From Gammaproteobacteria bacterium (GTDB taxonomy: Bacteria; Pseudomonadota; Gammaproteobacteria; Steroidobacterales; Woeseiaceae), in the NCBI GenBank assembly GCA_029865385.1, contig JAOUGX010000024.1, positions 1-40,733 of the forward strand: a stretch of 40,733 nt of DNA, in the 5' to 3' direction. The notes beneath the pieces were generated by a model. It had not been told where the DNA came from. It ran no database searches and worked only from the letters and a program-made list of their open reading frames with translations. The translations under genes and the position numbers were made by a program. Position 1 is the stretch's first letter; the number at the start of each line of letters is the position of its first letter. Positions 1 to 33,243 of the stretch are shown in pieces.

Positions 1-2854
1 CCTCCTGCAGCAGATCGGCAGGCTTATCCGCCTCATAGGTAACCGTTGACGGACGGTCGCTGGCCAGCCGGTCGCGAAGATCCTGTGCATCCTTCGCGAC
101 GAACACGTACTGAATGCTGTCGGCGTCCAGGTTTTCGCGGATCACGCGGTTTACGTCGGCCAGCGTCAGCTTGCTCAGCCCGTCCCGAACGTAGCTAGCG
201 AAGTTGTCCGTCCCGTAATAGCGGCTGTCGAGTTCGTAGCCGAGCTGCCGCGACTGCCCATCCATCAGCAGGCTGACGAATTTCGACAGGAAGCTTCGGC
301 TCGCCTCGAAATCCGATTCGCTGATGCCCTCCTCGATCAGCTTGTTCAGCTCGAACAGCGCGGTTCGTGTTGCGAAATGTGCGTCGTTGTTGCTGCGTAA
401 CGGCCTTACCCAGACCTGGAAGATCTGCTGTTGGCGCCCGAGATTCGTATCAGGGTGAAACTGGAACATGCCACGTGGAAAATATTCGACGTAGGCGTAG
501 TCACCGTAGTTCATGCCGCGCGTTTCGCGGATACGCTGGAAGAGGTGGCTATTGGTGCTGCGATGCTCGCCGAAATAGGAGCGCGCGAGCCACAATGCGA
601 CCCAGTCCGGGTCACCACGCTTCAGGTCGATTGGAAATCCGAACGACACGGCAACAGCGGGCGTCTCTTTCTCCACGATCGTGGCTGAGGAGCCATCTGG
701 CTTTGGTGCGTCCGGCACATCGAGCGCCACGCGTTCACCGGCCGGCAGCACCTGCAGGTCGCCGCTCACTCGCGTCGCGAATTCCGCCGGGTAACCGCCT
801 GCCAGACCGATAGTTATGTTCCGTATCGTGTAGTAGTCCGCATAAAACTTTTTGACGTCGTCCAGCGTGATCGATCTGATGTCGCGACTGTCGCCGAGGT
901 TCAGCGAACCGTACGGGTGCGCCGGACCAAACAGTTCCGCATAAAGGACCTCCTTGCCGAGCTCCTCGTCGTTGTTTCCGACAAGATCGGTACGGATCTG
1001 ATTGATCAGCTGCGTCTTCACGCGCTTGAAGTCCTGTTCACGCCAGCCTGGAGTCAACAGTTGCCCGCTGACCAGGTTGTACCACGTCTGCAGATTGTCC
1101 TTGTGAACCTGTCCGGAAAGACGCGTCATCTCCTTGTCCACCTGTGCGTCAAAGCCGGACGCTATCGGGTACATCGCGTCGTTGATCTGCTGAATCGTAT
1201 ACGTCGACGAGCCGCCGTCCGACACCATGGCGGCCGTCAGCGTGGCAAGTCCCTTTTTGCCGGCCGGATCCAGCGCCGCGCCGGCGTGAACGAGAAAGGC
1301 GACATCCACTAGCGGCGACGATGCGGAAGGCAGTGCCACGATCGACACCGGTTCGTTTTCGCTGCCGTCGCGACTCATGGAGCCGAGGTCGGGCGGCCTG
1401 ACCGCCTCGATTTCGGCTGCTTCATCGCCGTCTGCCACCATGACGCTTCGTGCCGCCACCAGCGCGTCGAGCGGCGCACTGCCGTCAATACCGGCAATGG
1501 AATTGCCACTCGACAGCGTAACGGTGACCCGCCCGGCATCATTGAAGTACTTGTCCGCATAAGTCCGCAGGTCCCCGGCAGTGAGTGCATCGTAACTGCG
1601 GTAGACCTCGTTGATAGTTTCCGGGGTTCGCCAGAACTGCACGAAACTGGCGAGCACCGCACCGATGTCGCCGGAGTTGTCGAGCTGCGCAGTGAACTGG
1701 TATCGCAGCCGCGACTTGGTCGCAGCCACCTTTGCAGCAGGCACCAGTTCAGTGCGGGCGCGCGCGAGCGTCTCGTGGATTGCGCTTTCGACATCCGCCG
1801 CATACGACTCGTCGGTGAGGCGCGCATAGATCATCAACAGGTTCGGATCCTTGCGGTCCGGAAAGTAAGTCTCGATCAGGTCGACAGACTGATCTTCCAG
1901 AACTAGCTTGCGGTACAGCTCGGAGGAATCCGAAAAATAGATCGAGGACAGCAGGTCCATTGACGGCATGTCCTTCTCGGTCGGTGCGTAAGCCGGGCCG
2001 CGAAATGCAATGAACAGGTAGGGCTGCGTCGGACTGTCCCATTGTATGTGCTCGTAAACCGGGCCGGACGGCGGCGGCTCGGCCGGGATTTCGGCAGTGT
2101 ATTTGCCTCGCTTCCAGCTGCCGAAGTATTTCTTGACCAGATCGAAGCTCGCTTCCGGATCGACATCGCCCACCAGGATGAGGGCGGTCTTTTCGGGCCG
2201 GTACCAGCGATCGAAGAAGGTTTTCGAATATTCGATCTGATCCGGCATCATCTCGATGTCCTCGATGAAACCCATCGTCGTGTGCCGGTAAGTGTGGTCT
2301 TTGAACGCTAACGCACGAATTCTTTCATAGGCTTTCGAGCTTGGGTCGGAGAAATTCTTCAGGTACTCGCCTTTGACTGCCAGTGCCTCGGTGCGAAAAT
2401 CCTCTTCCGAATATTGCAGATTCTGAAATCGGTCGGCTTCGATCTCGATGACTTTTTCCAGATCATCCTTGGTGAAAGTGATGTGGTAGTTGGTGTAATC
2501 GTCCGTGGTGTAGGCGTTTTGATCGGCGCCGGCCTTTTTCAGTATTTCGTTGTATTTTTCGGCCGGGTATTTCTCGGTTCCGCGAAACATCATGTGTTCG
2601 AAGAAATGCGCAAATCCGGATTTTCCAGGCTCGACTTCGTTCCGCGATCCGGTTTGCACCGGGATCTGGATCGTGACGATATCGGGGTAGTCCGTCTTGA
2701 CAACGATGACGCGAAGTCCGTTATCCAGATCGCGCATCAGGTATGGCATATCGAAAATTTTCGAACCGTCACTGGCAGTTACGGATTCTTCCGTGTGCCT
2801 GCCACAGGCGACGACAAGCGCGGCCATCAGCAGGCCGGCGACCAGTTTATTCAT
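1..2854 (-). CDS. M16 family zinc metalloprotease lipoprotein, 3' end beyond the window
   Basis: Two-domain pitrilysin-type peptidase, expected in the periplasm on a lipid anchor. About 951 codons are open from the ATG at 2854 to the window edge; the last visible residues fall in the final helical part of the family, so only a short C-terminus should be missing. The N-terminus is a lipoprotein signal (MNKLVAGLLMAALVVAC, acceptor Cys17). The zinc motif HFFEH gives ligands His83 and His87 and catalytic Glu86, and Glu163 lies 76 residues on, as expected for the third ligand. A second, inactive-type M16 domain fills the C-terminal half. The gene diverges from the amidohydrolase at 2991, so the 136-bp gap should hold both promoters. 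The family is confident; the substrate is unknown. Confidence 0.93.
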   Translation of the reverse strand, partial: MNKLVAGLLMAALVVACGRHTEESVTASDGSKIFDMPYLMRDLDNGLRVIVVKTDYPDIVTIQIPVQTGSRNEVEPGKSGFAHFFEHMMFRGTEKYPAEKYNEILKKAGADQNAYTTDDYTNYHITFTKDDLEKVIEIEADRFQNLQYSEEDFRTEALAVKGEYLKNFSDPSSKAYERIRALAFKDHTYRHTTMGFIEDIEMMPDQIEYSKTFFDRWYRPEKTALILVGDVDPEASFDLVKKYFGSWKRGKYTAEIPAEPPPSGPVYEHIQWDSPTQPYLFIAFRGPAYAPTEKDMPSMDLLSSIYFSDSSELYRKLVLEDQSVDLIETYFPDRKDPNLLMIYARLTDESYAADVESAIHETLARARTELVPAAKVAATKSRLRYQFTAQLDNSGDIGAVLASFVQFWRTPETINEVYRSYDALTAGDLRTYADKYFNDAGRVTVTLSSGNSIAGIDGSAPLDALVAARSVMVADGDEAAEIEAVRPPDLGSMSRDGSENEPVSIVALPSASSPLVDVAFLVHAGAALDPAGKKGLATLTAAMVSDGGSSTYTIQQINDAMYPIASGFDAQVDKEMTRLSGQVHKDNLQTWYNLVSGQLLTPGWREQDFKRVKTQLINQIRTDLVGNNDEELGKEVLYAELFGPAHPYGSLNLGDSRDIRSITLDDVKKFYADYYTIRNITIGLAGGYPAEFATRVSGDLQVLPAGERVALDVPDAPKPDGSSATIVEKETPAVAVSFGFPIDLKRGDPDWVALWLARSYFGEHRSTNSHLFQRIRETRGMNYGDYAYVEYFPRGMFQFHPDTNLGRQQQIFQVWVRPLRSNNDAHFATRTALFELNKLIEEGISESDFEASRSFLSKFVSLLMDGQSRQLGYELDSRYYGTDNFASYVRDGLSKLTLADVNRVIRENLDADSIQYVFVAKDAQDLRDRLASDRPSTVTYEADKPADLLQE

Positions 2855-2990
2855 CCAATCAATCTCCACAGCGTTTACACTATTGCCCCCGTATGACACC
2901 GCGAGCCGACGGGCGTTGCATGTTATCTGTTCGAAGCGGCACATGCATTTGGCAGCAACGGGCTGAATTTGAAACCACCGGAGAATATTC

Positions 2991-4670
2991 TTGTTATATC
3001 GTTTACAAACAATAGCTTATGTTGCTTTTTCTTGGCTCTCATTGAGTTCCGCACAGGCCGACACGCTGCTGCATTCGGTGCAGGGCTACACGTCGACCGC
3101 CACTGGCGAGATTCGCGAATTCACCGTACTGGTATTCGACGACAAAGGCCGGATTCTTGCCGCCGGCAGCGATGAGCTTCGGACAGTACACGGCGACGCC
3201 AAGGCGATCGACGGTACCGGGCGCTTCGTTCTCCCCGGCCTGATCGATGCACACGCCCACGTATCCAGCCAGGGCTTTCTGCAGGTACGGCTGGACGTCA
3301 CTGGCGTTGCCAGCCTCGAGGAGGCGGTTGCAAAGATCGCCGCATACGACAAGGCGCATCCGGGTTCCGGCTGGATTACCGGGCGCGGCTGGAACCAGGT
3401 CCTGTGGCCGGTCAGGGAATTTCCGACTGCCGCCGACATCGATGCGGTCGTGTCGAACCGGCCGGTCTGGCTCAACCGCATCGATGGACATGCCGGCTGG
3501 GCCAACAGCAAGGCGCTCGAGATTGCCGGCATCGACAACGACACGCCCGACCCGGTCGGCGGAAAGATTCATCGGGACAGCGACGGACGCGCCACAGGCA
3601 CACTGATCGACAATGCCATGGACCTGGTTTCCAGCAAGGTACCGGAACCGGCCAAGGACGATTACCGTGCCGCATTCATCGCCGCCTTCGGTCAACTCAC
3701 ATCGCTTGGCCTCACCAGCGTGCACGATGCCGGCGTAGACATCAGCGAAATCGAGGCGCTGATGTCGATGGCAGACAATGGCGAAATGTCGATGCGTATT
3801 TACGCGATGATTGCCGGTGCCGGCGAAAACCTCGACGCGATTGGCAAACCCATCCGCAGCTATGGCAACGACCGGCTGTCGGTCATGTCAGTCAAACTGG
3901 TTTCCGACGGCGCACTGGGAAGTCGCGGCGCGGCGATGATCGAACCGTACTCCGACGATGCGGAAAACCGTGGCCTGCCGTTCTGGACGCAGGCGCAACT
4001 GGACGAAATGGTAGTCAAGGCGAACGGCATGGGCTTCCAGGTCGGCATTCACGCGATCGGCGATTACGGCAACAAGCAGTCGCTGGACGCGTTCGACAAG
4101 GCACAGGGCGGCAAGGCCTCTGCACTGCGCAACCGCGTCGAACACGCGCAGATCATCCAGCTCTCGGACATTCCGCGCTTCGCAAAACTTGGCGTGATCG
4201 CCTCGATGCAGGCGACGCATGCGACCAGCGACATGAACATGGCGGAAGATCGCATCGGCGCGGAACGAATAAAAGGCGCCTACGCGTGGCGCAAGCTACT
4301 GGACAGCGGCGCCGTCATCGCCAACGGCTCGGATTTCCCGGTCGAGCTGCCGGACCCGATGCACGGCCTGTATGCGTCGGTCACGAGGCAAAGCCGAGCG
4401 GGCATGCCGGACGGCGGCTGGTATGCGTCGGAGTCGCTGACGCGCGCCGAAACACTGCATTCCTGGACTTATGCTGCGGCCTATGCGGCGCACCAGGAAG
4501 ATCGTCTCGGGACGCTGGAGCCGGGCAAGTGGGCGGACTTCATCGTCGTCGATCGTGACTACTTCAAAATTCCCGAATCGGAAATCGACGACATCCGGGT
4601 TTTGCAAACCTGGGTCGGGGGTGAACTCGTCTACGAACACTGTGGCGATTCGTCGGACGACACTTGCTGA
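2991..4670 (+). CDS. Exported amidohydrolase family 3 protein (YtcJ-like)
   Basis: Metal-dependent hydrolase of the PF07969 amidohydrolase class, 559 residues. The start is a TTG at 2991 with GGAG eight bases upstream. This gives a signal peptide ending SSAQA before residue 24, so the mature enzyme is probably periplasmic. Visible metal-site motifs are DAHAH near residue 86, GIHAIGDYGN near residue 350, EHAQI near residue 384 and GSDFPVE near residue 446, in the order usual for the family. YtcJ-like proteins hydrolyse amide or N-acyl bonds, but the actual substrate cannot be read from the sequence. The following hydrolase gene begins 11 bases after the stop, which suggests co-transcription. 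Confidence 0.88.
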   Translation: MLYRLQTIAYVAFSWLSLSSAQADTLLHSVQGYTSTATGEIREFTVLVFDDKGRILAAGSDELRTVHGDAKAIDGTGRFVLPGLIDAHAHVSSQGFLQVRLDVTGVASLEEAVAKIAAYDKAHPGSGWITGRGWNQVLWPVREFPTAADIDAVVSNRPVWLNRIDGHAGWANSKALEIAGIDNDTPDPVGGKIHRDSDGRATGTLIDNAMDLVSSKVPEPAKDDYRAAFIAAFGQLTSLGLTSVHDAGVDISEIEALMSMADNGEMSMRIYAMIAGAGENLDAIGKPIRSYGNDRLSVMSVKLVSDGALGSRGAAMIEPYSDDAENRGLPFWTQAQLDEMVVKANGMGFQVGIHAIGDYGNKQSLDAFDKAQGGKASALRNRVEHAQIIQLSDIPRFAKLGVIASMQATHATSDMNMAEDRIGAERIKGAYAWRKLLDSGAVIANGSDFPVELPDPMHGLYASVTRQSRAGMPDGGWYASESLTRAETLHSWTYAAAYAAHQEDRLGTLEPGKWADFIVVDRDYFKIPESEIDDIRVLQTWVGGELVYEHCGDSSDDTC

Positions 4671-5477: not shown

Positions 5478-5669
5478 GTCGCCCGCGATGCAGGCCAATC
5501 TGCCTGTCTGACAGGATAATTTGTCGGCGGGTACAAATTGATCTTGATTGCGATATTGGTCGAAACCTCGGGATGTCGCCTGCAATGCAGGCTCCTACAG
5601 GTCTTGCTCGACATCGATGTCGCCTGCGATACCAACAATGCATTTGTAGGAGCCTGCATCGCAGGCGAC
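5478..5669. repeat. Cluster of REP-like palindromic repeats
   Basis: Four related motifs built on GTCGCCTGC and GCAGGC occur in 192 bases. Positions 5575-5599 and 5645-5669 are nearly perfect inverted copies (core GCCTGCRATGCAGGCTCC with CCTACA). Shorter versions lie at 5478-5495 and 5619-5630. The arrangement can fold into one large hairpin between the end of gloB and the end of the convergent kinase gene. A related palindrome recurs at 31003. These resemble the REP/BIME elements mobilised by REP-associated tyrosine transposases; no transposase gene is in the window. Confidence 0.8.
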
Positions 5670-28120: not shown

Positions 28121-29731
28121 TTACATGCGGAAAATGCCGTACGGCGTTTCGCCGTCGCGCGGCCGGTTCATCGAGGCGGAGATCGCCTGGCCCAGCACTT
28201 TACGCGTATCGACCGGATCGATGACGCCGTCGTCCCACAGGCGCGCACTCGCATAATACGGATGCCCCTGGGATTCGTACTGGTTCTGGATTTCCTTTTC
28301 GAACTTCTTCCTGTCCTTTTCCGCCCAGACCTCGCCCTTGGCTGCGAGCCCGTCCTGTCGCACGCTGGAGAGAACCAGTGCGGCCTGTTCGCCGCCCATC
28401 ACGGAGATACGCGAATTCGGCCACATCCACAGCATGCGCGGGCCGTAGGCCCGGCCGCACATCGCGTAGTTACCGGCGCCAAACGAGCCGCCGACGATAA
28501 CCGTGAATTTTGGAACCGATGCGGTCGCCACGGCATTGACCATTTTCGCGCCATCTTTCGCGATACCGCCGTGTTCGTATTTCTTGCCAACCATGAATCC
28601 GGTGATGTTCTGCAGGAATACCAGAGGAATGCCGCGGCGGTTACACAGCTGAATGAAGTGCGCGCCCTTTTGCGCCGACTCGGAAAACAGGATTCCGTTG
28701 TTCGCAAGTATGCCGACCGGGTAACCGTAAAGATGACTGAATCCGCAAACCAGCGTCGGCCCGTACAACGCCTTGAACTCCTGGAACTCGGAACCGTCGA
28801 CGACACGCGCGATGACTTCGCGAATGTCGTAGGGGAAGCGGAACTCGCGCGACACGACGCCGTACAGTTCGTCAGCAGGATAAGCGGGTTCGACGACTTC
28901 GCGCAGGCGCAGCGGAATGTTCTTCCGCCAGTTCAGGTTCGAGACGATTTCGCGAACCTTTTCCAGCGCTTCCGTGTCGTTCGCCGCCAGGTAATCGGTA
29001 ACCCCGGAAATCCGCGAGTGCACGTCGCCGCCACCCAGCGTTTCGGCATCGACGACTTCACCCGTTGCCGCTTTGACCAGCGGCGGGCCGCCGAGAAAAA
29101 TCGTTCCCTGGTTCCTGACGATGATCGCTTCATCGCACATCGCGGGAACGTATGCACCGCCCGCGGTGCAGGAGCCGAGCACGGCAGCGATCTGCGGCAG
29201 ACCCAGTGCGGACATGCGCGCCTGGTTGTAGAAAATGCGGCCGAAGTGATCGCGGTCGGGAAACACCTCGTCCTGCATCGGCAGGAATGCGCCGCCGGAA
29301 TCGACGAGATAAATACACGGCAAGCCGTTCTGCTCGGCGATTTCTTGCGCACGCAGGTGCTTGCGCACAGTCAGAGGATAATAGGTGCCGCCTTTCACCG
29401 TCGCGTCGTTGGCGACGATCATGCAGTCCGTGTCATTGACCTGGCCGATGCCCGCAATAACGCCGGCGGCCGGCACCTCGTTGTCGTACATCCCGTAAGC
29501 CGCGAGCTGCGCCACTTCGAGAAACGGCGCGCCGCGGTCGACGACCGTGCGAATCCGGTCCCGGGGCAGCAGCTTGCCGCGCGAGAGGTGCTTTTCACGC
29601 GCTCGCTGGCTGCCGCCTTCCTCGATCTTCTGCAGGGTCTTCCTTAGGTCCGCGGCGAGTTTGCGGTTGGCTTTGGAGTTTTCTGCGAAGTCTTTGGAGT
29701 CGCTTTTGATTCTTGTTTGAATTTTCGGCAT
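28121..29731 (-). CDS. liuB: Methylcrotonyl-CoA carboxylase beta (carboxyltransferase) subunit
   Basis: Carboxyltransferase of 536 residues that moves the carboxyl group from biotin to 3-methylcrotonyl-CoA in leucine degradation. N- and C-terminal crotonase-like domains are both present, with [68 protein letters not shown] and [18 protein letters not shown]. Those segments fit the methylcrotonyl-CoA branch better than the propionyl-CoA or acetyl-CoA branches. It starts 14 bases after the isovaleryl-CoA dehydrogenase stop. The biotin-carrying alpha subunit (LiuD/MccA) it needs is not encoded in the window. Confidence 0.93.
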
Positions 29732-29745
29732 CGGCTTTCGAATTT

Positions 29746-30903
29746 CTAGTTCGTGGCGTTGAAGAGTTCACGCCCGATCAGCATGCGGCGTATCTCACTG
29801 GTGCCGGCGCCGATTTCGTACAACTTGGCGTCGCGCAACAATCGGCCGGCCGGGTACTCGTTGATATAACCGTTACCGCCCAGCGCCTGGATCGTTTCGC
29901 TGGCCATCCAGGTGGCTTTTTCGGCGGACTGCAGAATGCACCCGGCCGCGTCGAAGTTGGTCGTCTGGCCGCGATCGCAGGCACGCGCCACGGCATAGAC
30001 GTATGCGCGGCACGCGTTCATCGTCGTGTACATGTCAGCGACTTTGCCCTGCATCAGCTGAAAAGTGCCGATGGCCTGTCCGAACTGTTTGCGATCGTGA
30101 ATGTACGGCATCACCAGATCATAACAGGCGCGCATTATGCCCAGCGGACCGGCGGCAAGCACGACGCGCTCGAAATCGAGGCCGCTCATAAGGATTTTCG
30201 CGCCCTTGTTTTCGTCTCCCAGGAGATTTTCGGCCGGCACCCTGCAATCGTTCATCACCAACTCGCCCGTATCGGAGCCGCGCATGCCTAGCTTGTCCAG
30301 CTTCTGCGCGGCCGAGAATCCGGGCATGCCTTTTTCGACTATGAACGCACTCAGCTTTGGTTTCGAATCACTGCCGCCGGTGACGGCATAGATAATCGAG
30401 ACGTCGGCTTCCGGCGCGTTGGTGATCCACATCTTGTTGCCGTTCAGCACCCATGAGTCCCCGTCCCTGACCGCACGTGCGCGCATACCCATGACGTCGG
30501 AACCGGCGCCGGCCTCGCTCATCGCCAGCGCACCGACATGTTCGCCCGAGATCAGATTCGGCAGGTATTTTTGTTTCTGCTCGGGCGTGCCCCAGCGGCG
30601 CAGCTGGTTAACGCAGAGATTCGAATGCGCGCCATAGGACAGACCTACGGAGGCAGACGCGCGGCTGATTTCTTCCATCGCGACCACGTGCGCGAGATAG
30701 CCGAGGCCGGTGCCGCCGGATTCCTCCTCGACTGTCAGTCCGAGCAGCCCGAGTTCGCCGAGCTCCGGCCAAAGGTCACGCGGAAACCGGTTGCTGCTGT
30801 CAATCTCGGCAGCGCGCGGCGCAATGCGATCTGCGGCGAACTGGCGAACCGTATCGCGCAGCAGGTCGACGTCCTCACCGAGGCCAAAATCGAAATCGAA
30901 CAT
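29746..30903 (-). CDS. liuA: Isovaleryl-CoA dehydrogenase
   Basis: FAD enzyme of 385 residues that converts isovaleryl-CoA to 3-methylcrotonyl-CoA and feeds electrons to [20 protein letters not shown] (125-141) and [20 protein letters not shown] are acyl-CoA dehydrogenase signatures. The catalytic base is the isovaleryl-type Glu, here Glu245 in [10 protein letters not shown], while the medium-chain position is AGTSEIRR without the Glu. It is the first gene of the operon liuA-liuB-SDR-kinase. The upstream 237 bases hold repeats and end at the sstT stop, so its promoter must lie between the repeats and the ATG. Confidence 0.94.
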
Positions 30904-31002
30904 AATCGGACACCCCCGTCATCGAAGCGTACATGATGGCCAATGCGCCTCGGCGCATGAATACCATTCGTGGGGTATTGGGAGGTTCGGAACGCCAGGC
31001 CA

Positions 31003-31023
31003 GTCGCCTGCAGTGCAGGCGAC
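31003..31023. repeat. REP-like palindrome
   Basis: A 21-base palindrome with arms GTCGCCTGCA and TGCAGGCGAC around a single central base. Its core matches the repeats at 5575-5669, which shows a dispersed family rather than a local accident. It lies 13 bases from the compound repeat at 31036. Confidence 0.75.
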
Positions 31024-31035
31024 CTATCAAAAAGC

Positions 31036-31142
31036 AAAAAAGGGGCCGGATACATTTTAAGTCTATTAAAAATGTATCCGGCCCCTTTTTTGTATCCGGC
31101 CCCTTTTTTGAATAGACTTAAAATGTATCCGGCCCCTTTTTT
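31036..31142. repeat. 107-bp compound inverted repeat, possible non-autonomous mobile element and terminator
   Basis: The ends, 31036-31067 and 31111-31142, are perfect 32-base inverted repeats built on A6-GGGGCCGGATACA and its complement. Two further inverted copies of the GGGGCCGGATAC core lie inside, at 31071-31091 and 31092-31109. The first two copies form a hairpin with a GC-rich stem bounded by A6 and T6, so it can act as a bidirectional intrinsic terminator after sstT. The last bases of the element overlap the TAA stop of sstT (31141-31143). The pattern suggests repeated insertion or template-switch duplication. No transposase is present in the window. Confidence 0.85.
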
Positions 31143-32343
31143 AGGTGGTATGGCAGGCTGCGGCGGTGAAGACCACATCGGTCGAGCTGTTCAACGCGGT
31201 CTCCGCAGAATCCTGCAGTACGCTGATGATGAAGCCGACGCCGACCACCTGCATCGCGATGCCATCCGGAATGCCGAACAGGCCGCAGGCCAGCGGGATC
31301 AGCAGCAGCGAACCGCCCGCAACCCCCGACGCACCGCAAGCCGACAAGGCCGCAACCACCGAAAGCAGCAAAGCCGTCGCAAAATCGACATCGATTCCGA
31401 GCGTGTGCGTTGCCGCGAGCGTCAACACGGTGATGGTGATTGCCGCACCGCCCATATTGACGGTTGCGCCGAGCGGAATCGAAACCGCATAGGTATTCCT
31501 GTCCAGCCCGAGTTTCTCGCACAGTGCGAGGTTCACCGGGATGTTGGCCGCGGAACTACGGGTAAAGAAAGCGGTTACGCCGCTTTCGCGCAGAGCCGTC
31601 AGCACGATTGGATAGGGATTGCGACGGATCTTGACCCATACGATCAACGGATTGACTATCAGCGCCATGATCAACATTGCGCCCAGCAACACGGACAGCA
31701 CCTGCGCATAAGCGCCGAGTTCTGCGAGGCCCGATGTGGCGAGCGAGCCGGCGACGAGACCGAAGATGCCGAGTGGCGCAAGCCGGATGACGACACGCAC
31801 GATCGCGGTCACTGCTTCGGCAACGTCCCTCAGCATGTCGCGACTCGATTGCGAAGCGCGACGCAGGCCCAGGCCGAGCGCTACACCCCACACCAGGATG
31901 CCGATGTAGTTGCCATTCATCAGTGCGCTGACCGGATTATCGACCAGTTTGAACAACAGGTTCTTCAACACTTCGACGATACCCTCGGGTGGGTTTACGC
32001 CGAGATCCGTGACGTTCAGCGTGAGTGTCGTCGGGAAGGCCGTGCTCAAGACCACAGCGAGCAATGCAGCGCTGAATGTGCCGACGAGATACAAGAGAAT
32101 TACCGGGCGCATCTGCGTCGGGTGTTCGTGGTGCTGGTTTGCGAGCGCGGACGCAACCAGCACCAATACCAGTACCGGTGCCACCGCTTTCAGCGCCTGC
32201 ACGAACAAGTCGCCCAGCAGCATGGTCTTTGCCGCAAGGCCCGGCGCCAACAGCAGCAACGCGATGCCGGCTACGATGCCGACGGCAATCTGCGCCACGA
32301 GATTGCCGCTCGCAATGCGCTCGAAAACGGATTTGGTGGACAT
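31141..32343 (-). CDS. sstT: Sodium/serine-threonine symporter SstT
   Basis: Inner-membrane DAACS-family symporter of 400 residues that imports serine and threonine with Na+. The family signature [20 protein letters not shown] lies near 263-282. It is followed by [22 protein letters not shown], the re-entrant and TM7 region, and the substrate-binding [15 protein letters not shown] near the end. Eight or more hydrophobic segments are visible. The stop codon overlaps the end of the compound repeat, but the C-terminus (FTAAACHTT) still looks normal for the family. It lies 66 bases after the LuxR regulator gene and is probably in the same transcription unit. Confidence 0.93.
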
Positions 32344-32409
32344 ACGGCTCTTCTTTATTGGTGGTTATGCAAAATATGTCGGATACATTGTGCCAGAGAT
32401 TCGGTACGG

Positions 32410-33243
32410 CTATGCCGGCCCGCCCTGCCCGCGACTGCCCGGCTTTCGCGATCCTGATTCGAGTGCATTGATCAAAAGTGAAAACAACTCGTACTGCGAG
32501 CTGATGCCGAGCTTCGCGAACAGGTTGCGCTTGTGCACCATGACCGTACCGGGTGCGATCTTCAGTTCCCGGGCAATCGATTTGGATGAATATCCGCGCA
32601 GCAGCAACTGGCTGATCTGTTGTTCGCGTTCGGTTAGCAACGACTCGCCGAACCGTTCGAAGCATTCCGTCAATCGACGGTGCACGCGATCGTCGGTCAC
32701 ATGATAGTCCGCGTTCTTCGCCCAGTCCTGCCAGATGCGCTGCATGCCTGCCCGGATCAGTGGCTCGGTCAGTTGAAGCCGGCTGAGTTCGGCCTTGCTG
32801 AAAGTATGCGTGCGCCGCCCGATCACCAGCACCAGCGTCGTTTCATCGGACACCGGCAGCAGGTAATCCATCTCGTCCAGCAGGTGCGTGCGTTCGCAAT
32901 ACTGCTTGTAGTATTCGCTGGCGCGAAACCGGTCCGGCAACTGATCGCGAAAACGGCACAGGCTGGGCTTGTCCGACTTGAGTGCGAGCTGGTAGAGCGG
33001 ATCGAGCAGATACGGACCCGCGAGGTACCGCTCGAGGTAATGCTTGCGACCGGCGGGTTCCAGCGTGTGATGCACGACATCGGGACTTGCGTTGCTGTGA
33101 ATCGCCAGCAGGCAGGTGCCTTCATGATCCACCACAAGGCCGATGGCCGATACGAGCGCGTCCGCGATCGCGGCGTGATCGGTACCGGCGACCACATTGG
33201 CGACTGCCTGATGCCATTCAGCGGATTCGAACTTGCTACGCAC
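32410..33243 (-). CDS. LuxR family transcriptional regulator
   Basis: Regulator of 277 residues. The C-terminal LuxR helix-turn-helix spans about 205-260 (LTEREQQISQLLLRG, then SSKSIARELKIAPGTVMVHK). The N-terminal 190 residues are not a receiver domain and do not match a known autoinducer pocket by eye, so the signal is unknown. Translation starts at a GTG. It lies 14 bases after the TIM-barrel gene and before sstT, so it may control this cluster. Confidence 0.87.
   Translation of the reverse strand: MRSKFESAEWHQAVANVVAGTDHAAIADALVSAIGLVVDHEGTCLLAIHSNASPDVVHHTLEPAGRKHYLERYLAGPYLLDPLYQLALKSDKPSLCRFRDQLPDRFRASEYYKQYCERTHLLDEMDYLLPVSDETTLVLVIGRRTHTFSKAELSRLQLTEPLIRAGMQRIWQDWAKNADYHVTDDRVHRRLTECFERFGESLLTEREQQISQLLLRGYSSKSIARELKIAPGTVMVHKRNLFAKLGISSQYELFSLLINALESGSRKPGSRGQGGPA

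Follow-up and report, generated by a model that had tools for sequence, protein, structure and literature searches.

The 107-base cluster at positions 31036-31142 of the window (the whole stretch of 40,733 nucleotides that was analysed) is, judged by sequence, one of more than 30 clusters in its genome that belong to the end-repeat family of a TIRYT-type transposase. It is probably a non-autonomous repeat whose units derive from those at the ends of a TIRYT-type Y1/HUH element; presumed to be mobile, it incidentally supplies what would be a bidirectional terminator behind sstT. Repeats of this kind are known in print, and the family itself appears to be new.

Architecture of the sstT Cluster

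The cluster holds four exact copies of the core GGGGCCGGATAC, as found by matching the core across the genome, in the order + - - -: one on the plus strand (31042-31053) and three on the minus strand (31074-31085, 31092-31103, and 31125-31136), the second and third copies lying in tandem at 18-base spacing with TTTTTT between them. The initial annotation had described four inverted copies, which is right as to number and loose as to orientation. Its account of perfectly inverted 32-base outer ends enclosing two inner copies is borne out by exact matches: the plus-strand arm at 31036-31067, made up of unit 1 and the locus-specific AAGTCTATT, matches over all 32 bp the inverted minus-strand arm at 31111-31142, made up of unit 4 and AATAGACTT. 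At a 97% match, the outer inverted repeat reaches 37 nt. Positions 31035-31058 and 31069-31092 make up another inverted pair, perfect over 24 bp.

The cluster has two minus-strand neighbours, sstT (31141-32343), which encodes a serine/threonine transporter (NCBIfam NF010151, 622 bits), and an acyl-CoA dehydrogenase gene (29746-30903). As initially annotated, the end of sstT falls inside the element, two A's of its TAA stop codon (31141-31143, minus strand) coming from the element's A-tract. The outer A-tract of unit 4 (31137-31142, minus strand) would start a hairpin in the sstT mRNA, 3' of which follows a terminator-like T-tract (31036-31041, minus strand), giving the form of an intrinsic terminator, with a GC-rich hairpin and then a T-tract located 3' of the stop codon. 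The minus-strand (sstT-strand) RNA of the cluster folds at -60.2 kcal/mol against -22.2 ± 3.5 for 200 shuffles (z -10.9), and this fold finishes with six U. A simple terminator scan with a loop limit of 8 did not list the sstT element, and an Rfam search of the window gave no match. Within positions 28121-33243 of the window, sstT and the element stand between the acyl-CoA dehydrogenase gene and a gene for a LuxR-type regulator; in the relatives G003 and G006 these two genes adjoin without sstT, which is found elsewhere.

A Dispersed Family of Repeat Clusters

The initial annotation had held that a single genomic copy without family members in relatives would speak against a small mobile repeat; what was found is a dispersed family with relatives. 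With one mismatch allowed, the core matches 138 places in the cluster's own genome (3.92 Mb in 198 contigs), against 11 for the reversed pattern. Inverted core pairs number 31, against none for the control. When 37 stretches around the listed matches and transposase genes were taken together with the window (38 sources), they held 41 clusters and 102 cores among the matches listed. Three cores are present in 19 clusters, two in 11, one in seven, and four in four, and the commonest unit orders are +-- (11), +- (9), and ++- (8).

The repeating unit is about 25 bp long (RAAAAWGGGGCCGGATACATTTTYY) and has sharp edges in 95 copies. It consists of an A-tract, the core GGGGCCGGATAC, mostly A, and TTTT (95 units, transposase ends included), with conservation spanning about -5 to +16 around the core and none beyond about -6 and +18. 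The A/T tracts on the inner side of the unit are conserved about as well as the outer ones, and the spacers between cores vary by locus. Five of the single cores (L036, L037, L043, L046, and L023 at a contig edge) probably reflect chance or truncation, while two (L040, L041) resemble lone units with partial tails; all seven single-core clusters were left out of the placement count described below, as were both ends of the C171 transposase element. With the addition of locus L165 (contig C196), that count comprises 33 multi-unit clusters, a figure to be read as at least 33 that covers the first 100 of the 138 matches, through C187, plus exact inverted pairs. A half-core, GGGGCC or GGCCCC, lies directly outside the outermost full unit in 17 of the 33 clusters, a raw count given with no chance level.

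The C171 Transposase and Its Terminal Repeats

Three Y1_Tnp genes are present in the genome, and GGGGCCGGATAC ends are carried only by the one on contig C171 (locus L044), which has two tandem units ahead of it and two inverted units behind. Together these form 47-base inverted repeats of which 46 positions match (score 44). The initial annotation had proposed searching for a tyrosine transposase gene flanked by the core, and the C171 gene is such a gene, with the core on both sides. The clusters thus have their ends in common with a transposase-gene element, as is expected of non-autonomous repeats, the C171 element itself being presumed mobile. The C171 protein scores 44.7 bits against Pfam Y1_Tnp (cut-off 23), and its translation, of 240 aa from the chosen start (L044:2345) or 278 aa from the first ATG, contains TNHVHF, MWEGRF, and YIELNP. 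A Pfam search at E 0.01 returned Y1_Tnp alone and no C-terminal HTH hit, and the length of the protein leaves room for such a domain.

Among the matches listed, 110 loci carry a C171-type transposase or a relative (C171 and C139 of this genome included). Flanking inverted repeats could be scored at 102 of these, and 74 exceeded a score of 13, the 95% point of a control set of 150 mismatched flank pairs, one of which gave the top control value of 41. The same core occurs at the ends of the two closest transposase relatives among the matches listed, L050 (64% identity; a gammaproteobacterial MAG) and L217 (59%; relative G053). The end core is GGGGTCAGAGCCC at L226 (55%) and GGGGTCGGATCC at L218 and L219 (52%); three further relatives at 52-54% lie at contig edges, and L125 (52% over 71 residues) has no such flanking repeat. 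Ends of more distant relatives include GGGGTCAGA, GGGGACGGAGGG, GGTGTCAGGTTT, and others. Across 70 transposase/end pairs, protein identity and end similarity are correlated (Mantel r 0.578, reached in none of 2000 permutations). Exact inverted pairs of the core are absent from 58 of 59 relatives searched besides the cluster's own genome; the sole exception, G011, has one in a single place, in the +-- form and with its own spacer, and its transposase relative (about 40%) has a different end motif.

Unit stem scores across 68 transposase families average 4.47, against 3.74 ± 0.13 when partners were shuffled (0 of 300). In 13 of the 68 families, the L080, L087, L077, L072, and L055 loci being examples, the end unit scores at least 6 as a hairpin whose loop contains or adjoins the GGG core. 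A reading of each unit as its own hairpin, with an A-tract/T-tract stem and the core in the loop, was nevertheless set aside and is kept as a remark only, because so few families reach 6 and because the variants in this genome, by eye, mostly lack co-variation inside the unit.

The REP-type palindrome at 31003-31023, which lies outside the element and ends 12 bases ahead of it, belongs elsewhere. It matches GTAG-type repeats that flank another Y1 transposase gene, on contig C14 (L166), and the consensus of 95 unit copies shows no GTAG foot (GT[AG]G at the base of a short palindrome). On the NCBIfam model for REP-associated transposases (NF047646, cut-off 80), the C14 protein scores 138.9 bits, C139 77.5, and C171 71.3, so that C171 falls below the cut-off. 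The initial annotation had taken the nearby REP to link the element to REP-type transposases; since the REP matches the C14 gene's repeats and the element matches the C171 ends, the two transposase systems lie side by side here without common descent.

Other repeat families were noted along the way. GTAG-type REPs of the form GTAGGAGCCTGCATTGCAGGCGAC occur in the window at 5575-5640 and at 31003-31023, and in L166 around 2316-3400, where each side of the C14 gene carries them in head-to-tail arrays that repeat about every 55 bases. A second end-repeat family of the same form as the present one, GGTGCCGGRTCTATTT, flanks the C139 Y1 transposase gene (L048 2745-3600 and 4228-4320) and occurs in inverted pairs, some of them with A/T tracts; with one mismatch allowed, it matches 20 places in the genome. 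Five copies among the loci examined (L025 82-136, L183, L184, L250, and L251) represent a further repeat, in which the loop is conserved (about TTCGAGCGARTTARGAYTTCYGAGTGAGAA) and the arms differ between copies yet are largely complementary; G001 and G002 contain additional partial matches to it.

Placement Behind Stop Codons and Terminator-Like Form

The 33 multi-unit clusters are distributed over 14 convergent, 16 codirectional, and one divergent gap, the remaining two lacking two neighbours. Only 1 of 31 gaps with clusters is divergent, against 14 of 51 element-free gaps of at least 60 bases from the same loci (p 0.007). Thirty of the 33 clusters follow a stop codon at a distance of no more than 40 bases, the exceptions being L042 (stop at 91 bases) and L038 and L041 (none found); genes were called with a simple codon-usage script, so single gene-to-cluster distances may be off. 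When a 70-base element was placed at random in 38 element-free gaps of at least 90 bases, an upstream stop codon came within the same 40 bases in 29%. In codirectional gaps, the cluster is closer to the upstream stop than to the downstream start in 14 of 16 cases (p 0.004).

Both tracts, with at least four A in the five bases before the first core and at least four T in the five after the last, are present in 31 of the 33 clusters. The A-tract/GC hairpin/T-tract form and the position of the clusters would fit a bidirectional terminator. A/T tracts are also found on the inner side of the unit, and the tracts are therefore no evidence of selection for termination.

Likeness of Arms Within Sites

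The arms of a cluster resemble each other more closely than they resemble those of other sites. In tests on 35 clusters, with the C171 ends included where the test applies, agreement over positions 1-6 was 0.864 for outer tails of the same site against 0.777 when shuffled, and 0.899 against 0.824 for inner arms (0 of 5000 shuffles in each case); over positions 7-12 of the inner arms, which lie beyond the unit, it was 0.440 against 0.301 (20 of 5000). Outer flanks compared at fixed positions 7-12, 13-20, and 21-30 gave no significant result (308, 2733, and 2037 of 5000). When small shifts were allowed, the local match of outer flanks was 5.39 against 4.59 (3 of 1000), a signal driven by a few loci, L039, L029, and L041, which are also those where outer palindromy is strong past six bases.

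Identical outer tails make up 48% of 93 same-site pairs, against 15% of 4563 other pairs. Tail agreement is 0.82 for same-direction copies and 0.86 for opposite copies, against 0.74 between sites. Because same-direction copies are also alike, RNA pairing alone is insufficient to account for the likeness, which local duplication together with template switching would produce.

Corresponding Sites in Relatives

In the relatives G001, G002, G003, and G006, 15 sites could be read that correspond to six clusters: two each on C83 and C23, and one each on C67 and C155. Eight are anchored by both neighbour genes, some of the gaps there being much longer than in the cluster's own genome: the first C83 site (G003, G006), the second C83 site (G001), the first C23 site (G002), the second C23 site (G001, G002, G003), and C67 (G003). 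Seven are anchored on one side: the second C83 site (G003, G006; other sequence beyond), the first C23 site (G001), C67 (G002, G006; cut by a contig end), and C155 (G001, G003). The core was found at none of the 15 sites at up to two mismatches. The relatives compared are other species and genera, with one genome per species, and a gain or loss of the core at these sites is for that reason undated. No target-site duplication was found for the element.

At 10 of the 15 sites (6 of the 8 both-anchored and 4 of the 7 one-side anchored), the sequence holds an inverted repeat stronger than all 20 base shuffles; stems were scored on hand-picked stretches against simple shuffles, and element types were named by eye. 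Some pairs resemble other end-repeat families, namely GGGACATTCCTG in G006, GGGGTCAGACCAC in G002, and GGCGCCGGATTTATTT in G001. Again by eye, G003 and G006 show GTAG-type pairs, G001 and G002 a repeat whose palindromic arms enclose a conserved loop, and G003 some hairpins that fit no known family, one of them terminator-like. The five sites without a stronger repeat comprise one tie (first C23 site, G001), two that are cut by contig ends, and two with no repeat, the second C83 site in G001 and the second C23 site in G003.

Only the second C83 site in G001 is a clear repeat-free, both-anchored site. In the cluster's own genome, the gene end there, CCAAGTAGAAAAGAG, has a perfect inverted copy across the element. 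The corresponding ends in G001, AAATAAGAAAAG and CTTCCTCTATTT, are complementary by eye at 9 of 12 positions, and a stem search at that site found five pairs only, below the shuffles. The 15-bp host arm had been considered as proof of an inverted duplication of the gene end, a reading weakened by the imperfect repeat in G001. Because the G001 ends are only partly complementary, the arms at this site were probably perfected in this lineage, and the element may have entered the loop of a pre-existing imperfect hairpin.

The sstT site itself was readable in none of these relatives: the G001 contig stops two bases past the sstT match, the G002 contig breaks off within the acyl-CoA dehydrogenase gene, and sstT has a different location in G003 and G006.

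Proposed Origin of the Clusters and Alternative Explanations

If the sstT cluster derives from the end unit of a TIRYT-type element, a C171-type transposase would, as expected from its family, recognise the core on single-stranded DNA and move or copy end pieces to new sites. The sequences suggest that extra unit copies at a site would arise by local tandem duplication and that template switching between the arms would make them alike. Clusters would settle directly 3' of stop codons, where their inverted A-tract/GC/T-tract form could serve as an intrinsic terminator in both directions, in this case for sstT.

Among the alternatives, the least improbable, though still unlikely, is that the clusters are classical MITEs, internal-deletion derivatives of the C171 element that each represent one insertion with fixed ends. 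They do have the unit and inverted ends in common with that element; however, unit number and order vary (+--, +-, ++-, and others), as do the spacers, none of those displayed being the C171 spacer. Slightly less probable is that no mobile element is involved and that the clusters are ordinary host terminators sharing sequence by chance and kept by selection on the RNA hairpin. Post-stop placement, the A/T tracts, hairpin stability, and the terminator-like hairpin at one corresponding site in G003 would all be expected of such terminators, but termination does not need an identical 12-base core at dozens of loci, nor would it account for that core at transposase-gene ends here and in two other genomes, for inner tracts conserved about like the outer ones, or for its absence from all 15 corresponding sites.

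A canonical REP/REPIN array, spread by a canonical REP-associated transposase, is highly improbable. It would draw on the REP 12 bases off, on the membership of the C171 transposase in the same superfamily, and on the likewise 3' location of canonical REPs (PMC3733652), yet the unit has no GTAG foot, the REP and the element match the repeats of different genes (C14 and C171), and the NF047646 cut-off missed by C171 is well exceeded by C14. The least credible explanation is a DNA-uptake-type signal scattered by transformation and not by a transposase. A short core with A/T flanks in inverted pairs at gene ends resembles such signals, and in Neisseria inverted uptake sequences also form terminators; against this, uptake sequences number a thousand or more whereas 138 matches were found here, the copies are strongly clustered, the core lies at transposase ends, and exact inverted pairs are missing in 58 of 59 relatives.

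Derivation from a TIRYT-type end unit thus remains the preferred reading, and a broader proposal can be attached to it tentatively. The post-stop slot might be a shared docking site at which unrelated transposase-linked repeats replace one another across genomes of the bacterial family, as interchangeable self-spreading terminators whose arms are kept complementary by template switching. This is rather doubtful, since anchoring on both sides is limited to 8 of the 15 sites and the repeats seen at the sites have no tied transposase.

The end repeats of TIRYTs received their name in 2013, and the term appears in just two papers of the literature searched. The present family offers a clean case: a single transposase gene bears these ends, the multi-unit clusters number at least 33, the core recurs with close relatives of the transposase, and the equivalent sites in other genomes lack the core and often carry another hairpin. 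Two matters can now be tested: which DNA is recognised by subclass 2.1 transposases, the candidate being a conserved core with variable spacers and no GTAG foot, and whether TIRYT-type repeats are merely tolerated or are used as terminators. For genome annotation, the family accounts for a class of inverted repeats at gene ends.

Comparison With Known Systems

REP and REPIN sequences are short inverted units, located mostly at 3' ends and tied to canonical RAYTs. The present family resembles them in its short inverted units mostly at 3' ends and in its related transposase, and differs in lacking a GTAG foot, in its conserved core with variable spacers, and in a transposase that scores under the NCBIfam cut-off.

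The C171 element and the cluster are instead, on the evidence of their repeats and protein motifs, of the TIRYT or TIRtron kind (Di Nocera et al., 2013), corresponding to subclass 2.1 of the Y1 transposases (Quentin et al., 2018), and not REP. TIRYTs are described as Y1 transposase genes with long terminal inverted repeats unrelated to GTAG REPs (PMC3733652), and the C171 gene is flanked by long non-GTAG terminal inverted repeats (46/47 bases, two units each). In some genomes, TIRYT end repeats recur singly, as dimers, or in groups (Di Nocera, De Gregorio, and Rocco, 2013; PMC3733652), and the GGGGCCGGATAC end repeats recur genome-wide as dimers and groups. The motif GGGGWSAS is reported in some, not all, of the end repeats treated there (PMC3733652); the C171 core, GGGGCCGG, departs from it at positions 5 and 7, and the ends of some transposase relatives fit it, for example GGGGACAG. 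The present case differs in having its transposase gene bounded on either side by two tandem units, and in the measurements of within-site likeness and post-stop placement for end repeats, placement being given for REPs in the corresponding part of that paper (PMC3733652).

Subclass 2.1 of TnpA-Y1 is characterised by the motifs NHVH, W[EQ], and YIELNP (Quentin et al., 2018; PMC6006769), a median length of 238 aa, and a C-terminal HTH-like domain (PMC6006769). NHVH, WE, and YIELNP are present in the C171 protein, whose length is near the 238-aa median (PMC6006769). The survey that defined the subclass found no REP-like sequences near its genes (PMC6006769), whereas the C171 gene has end units that recur genome-wide. 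A likeness of another kind is found in template-switch hairpins, in which the arms of an inverted repeat are made complementary by copying one from the other, as described for RNA genes (Monttinen and Löytynoja, 2022; PMC8794818). The copying of arms would be alike in the two cases, theirs in RNA genes and here, as the likeness of arms within sites suggests, in the end repeats of a transposon.
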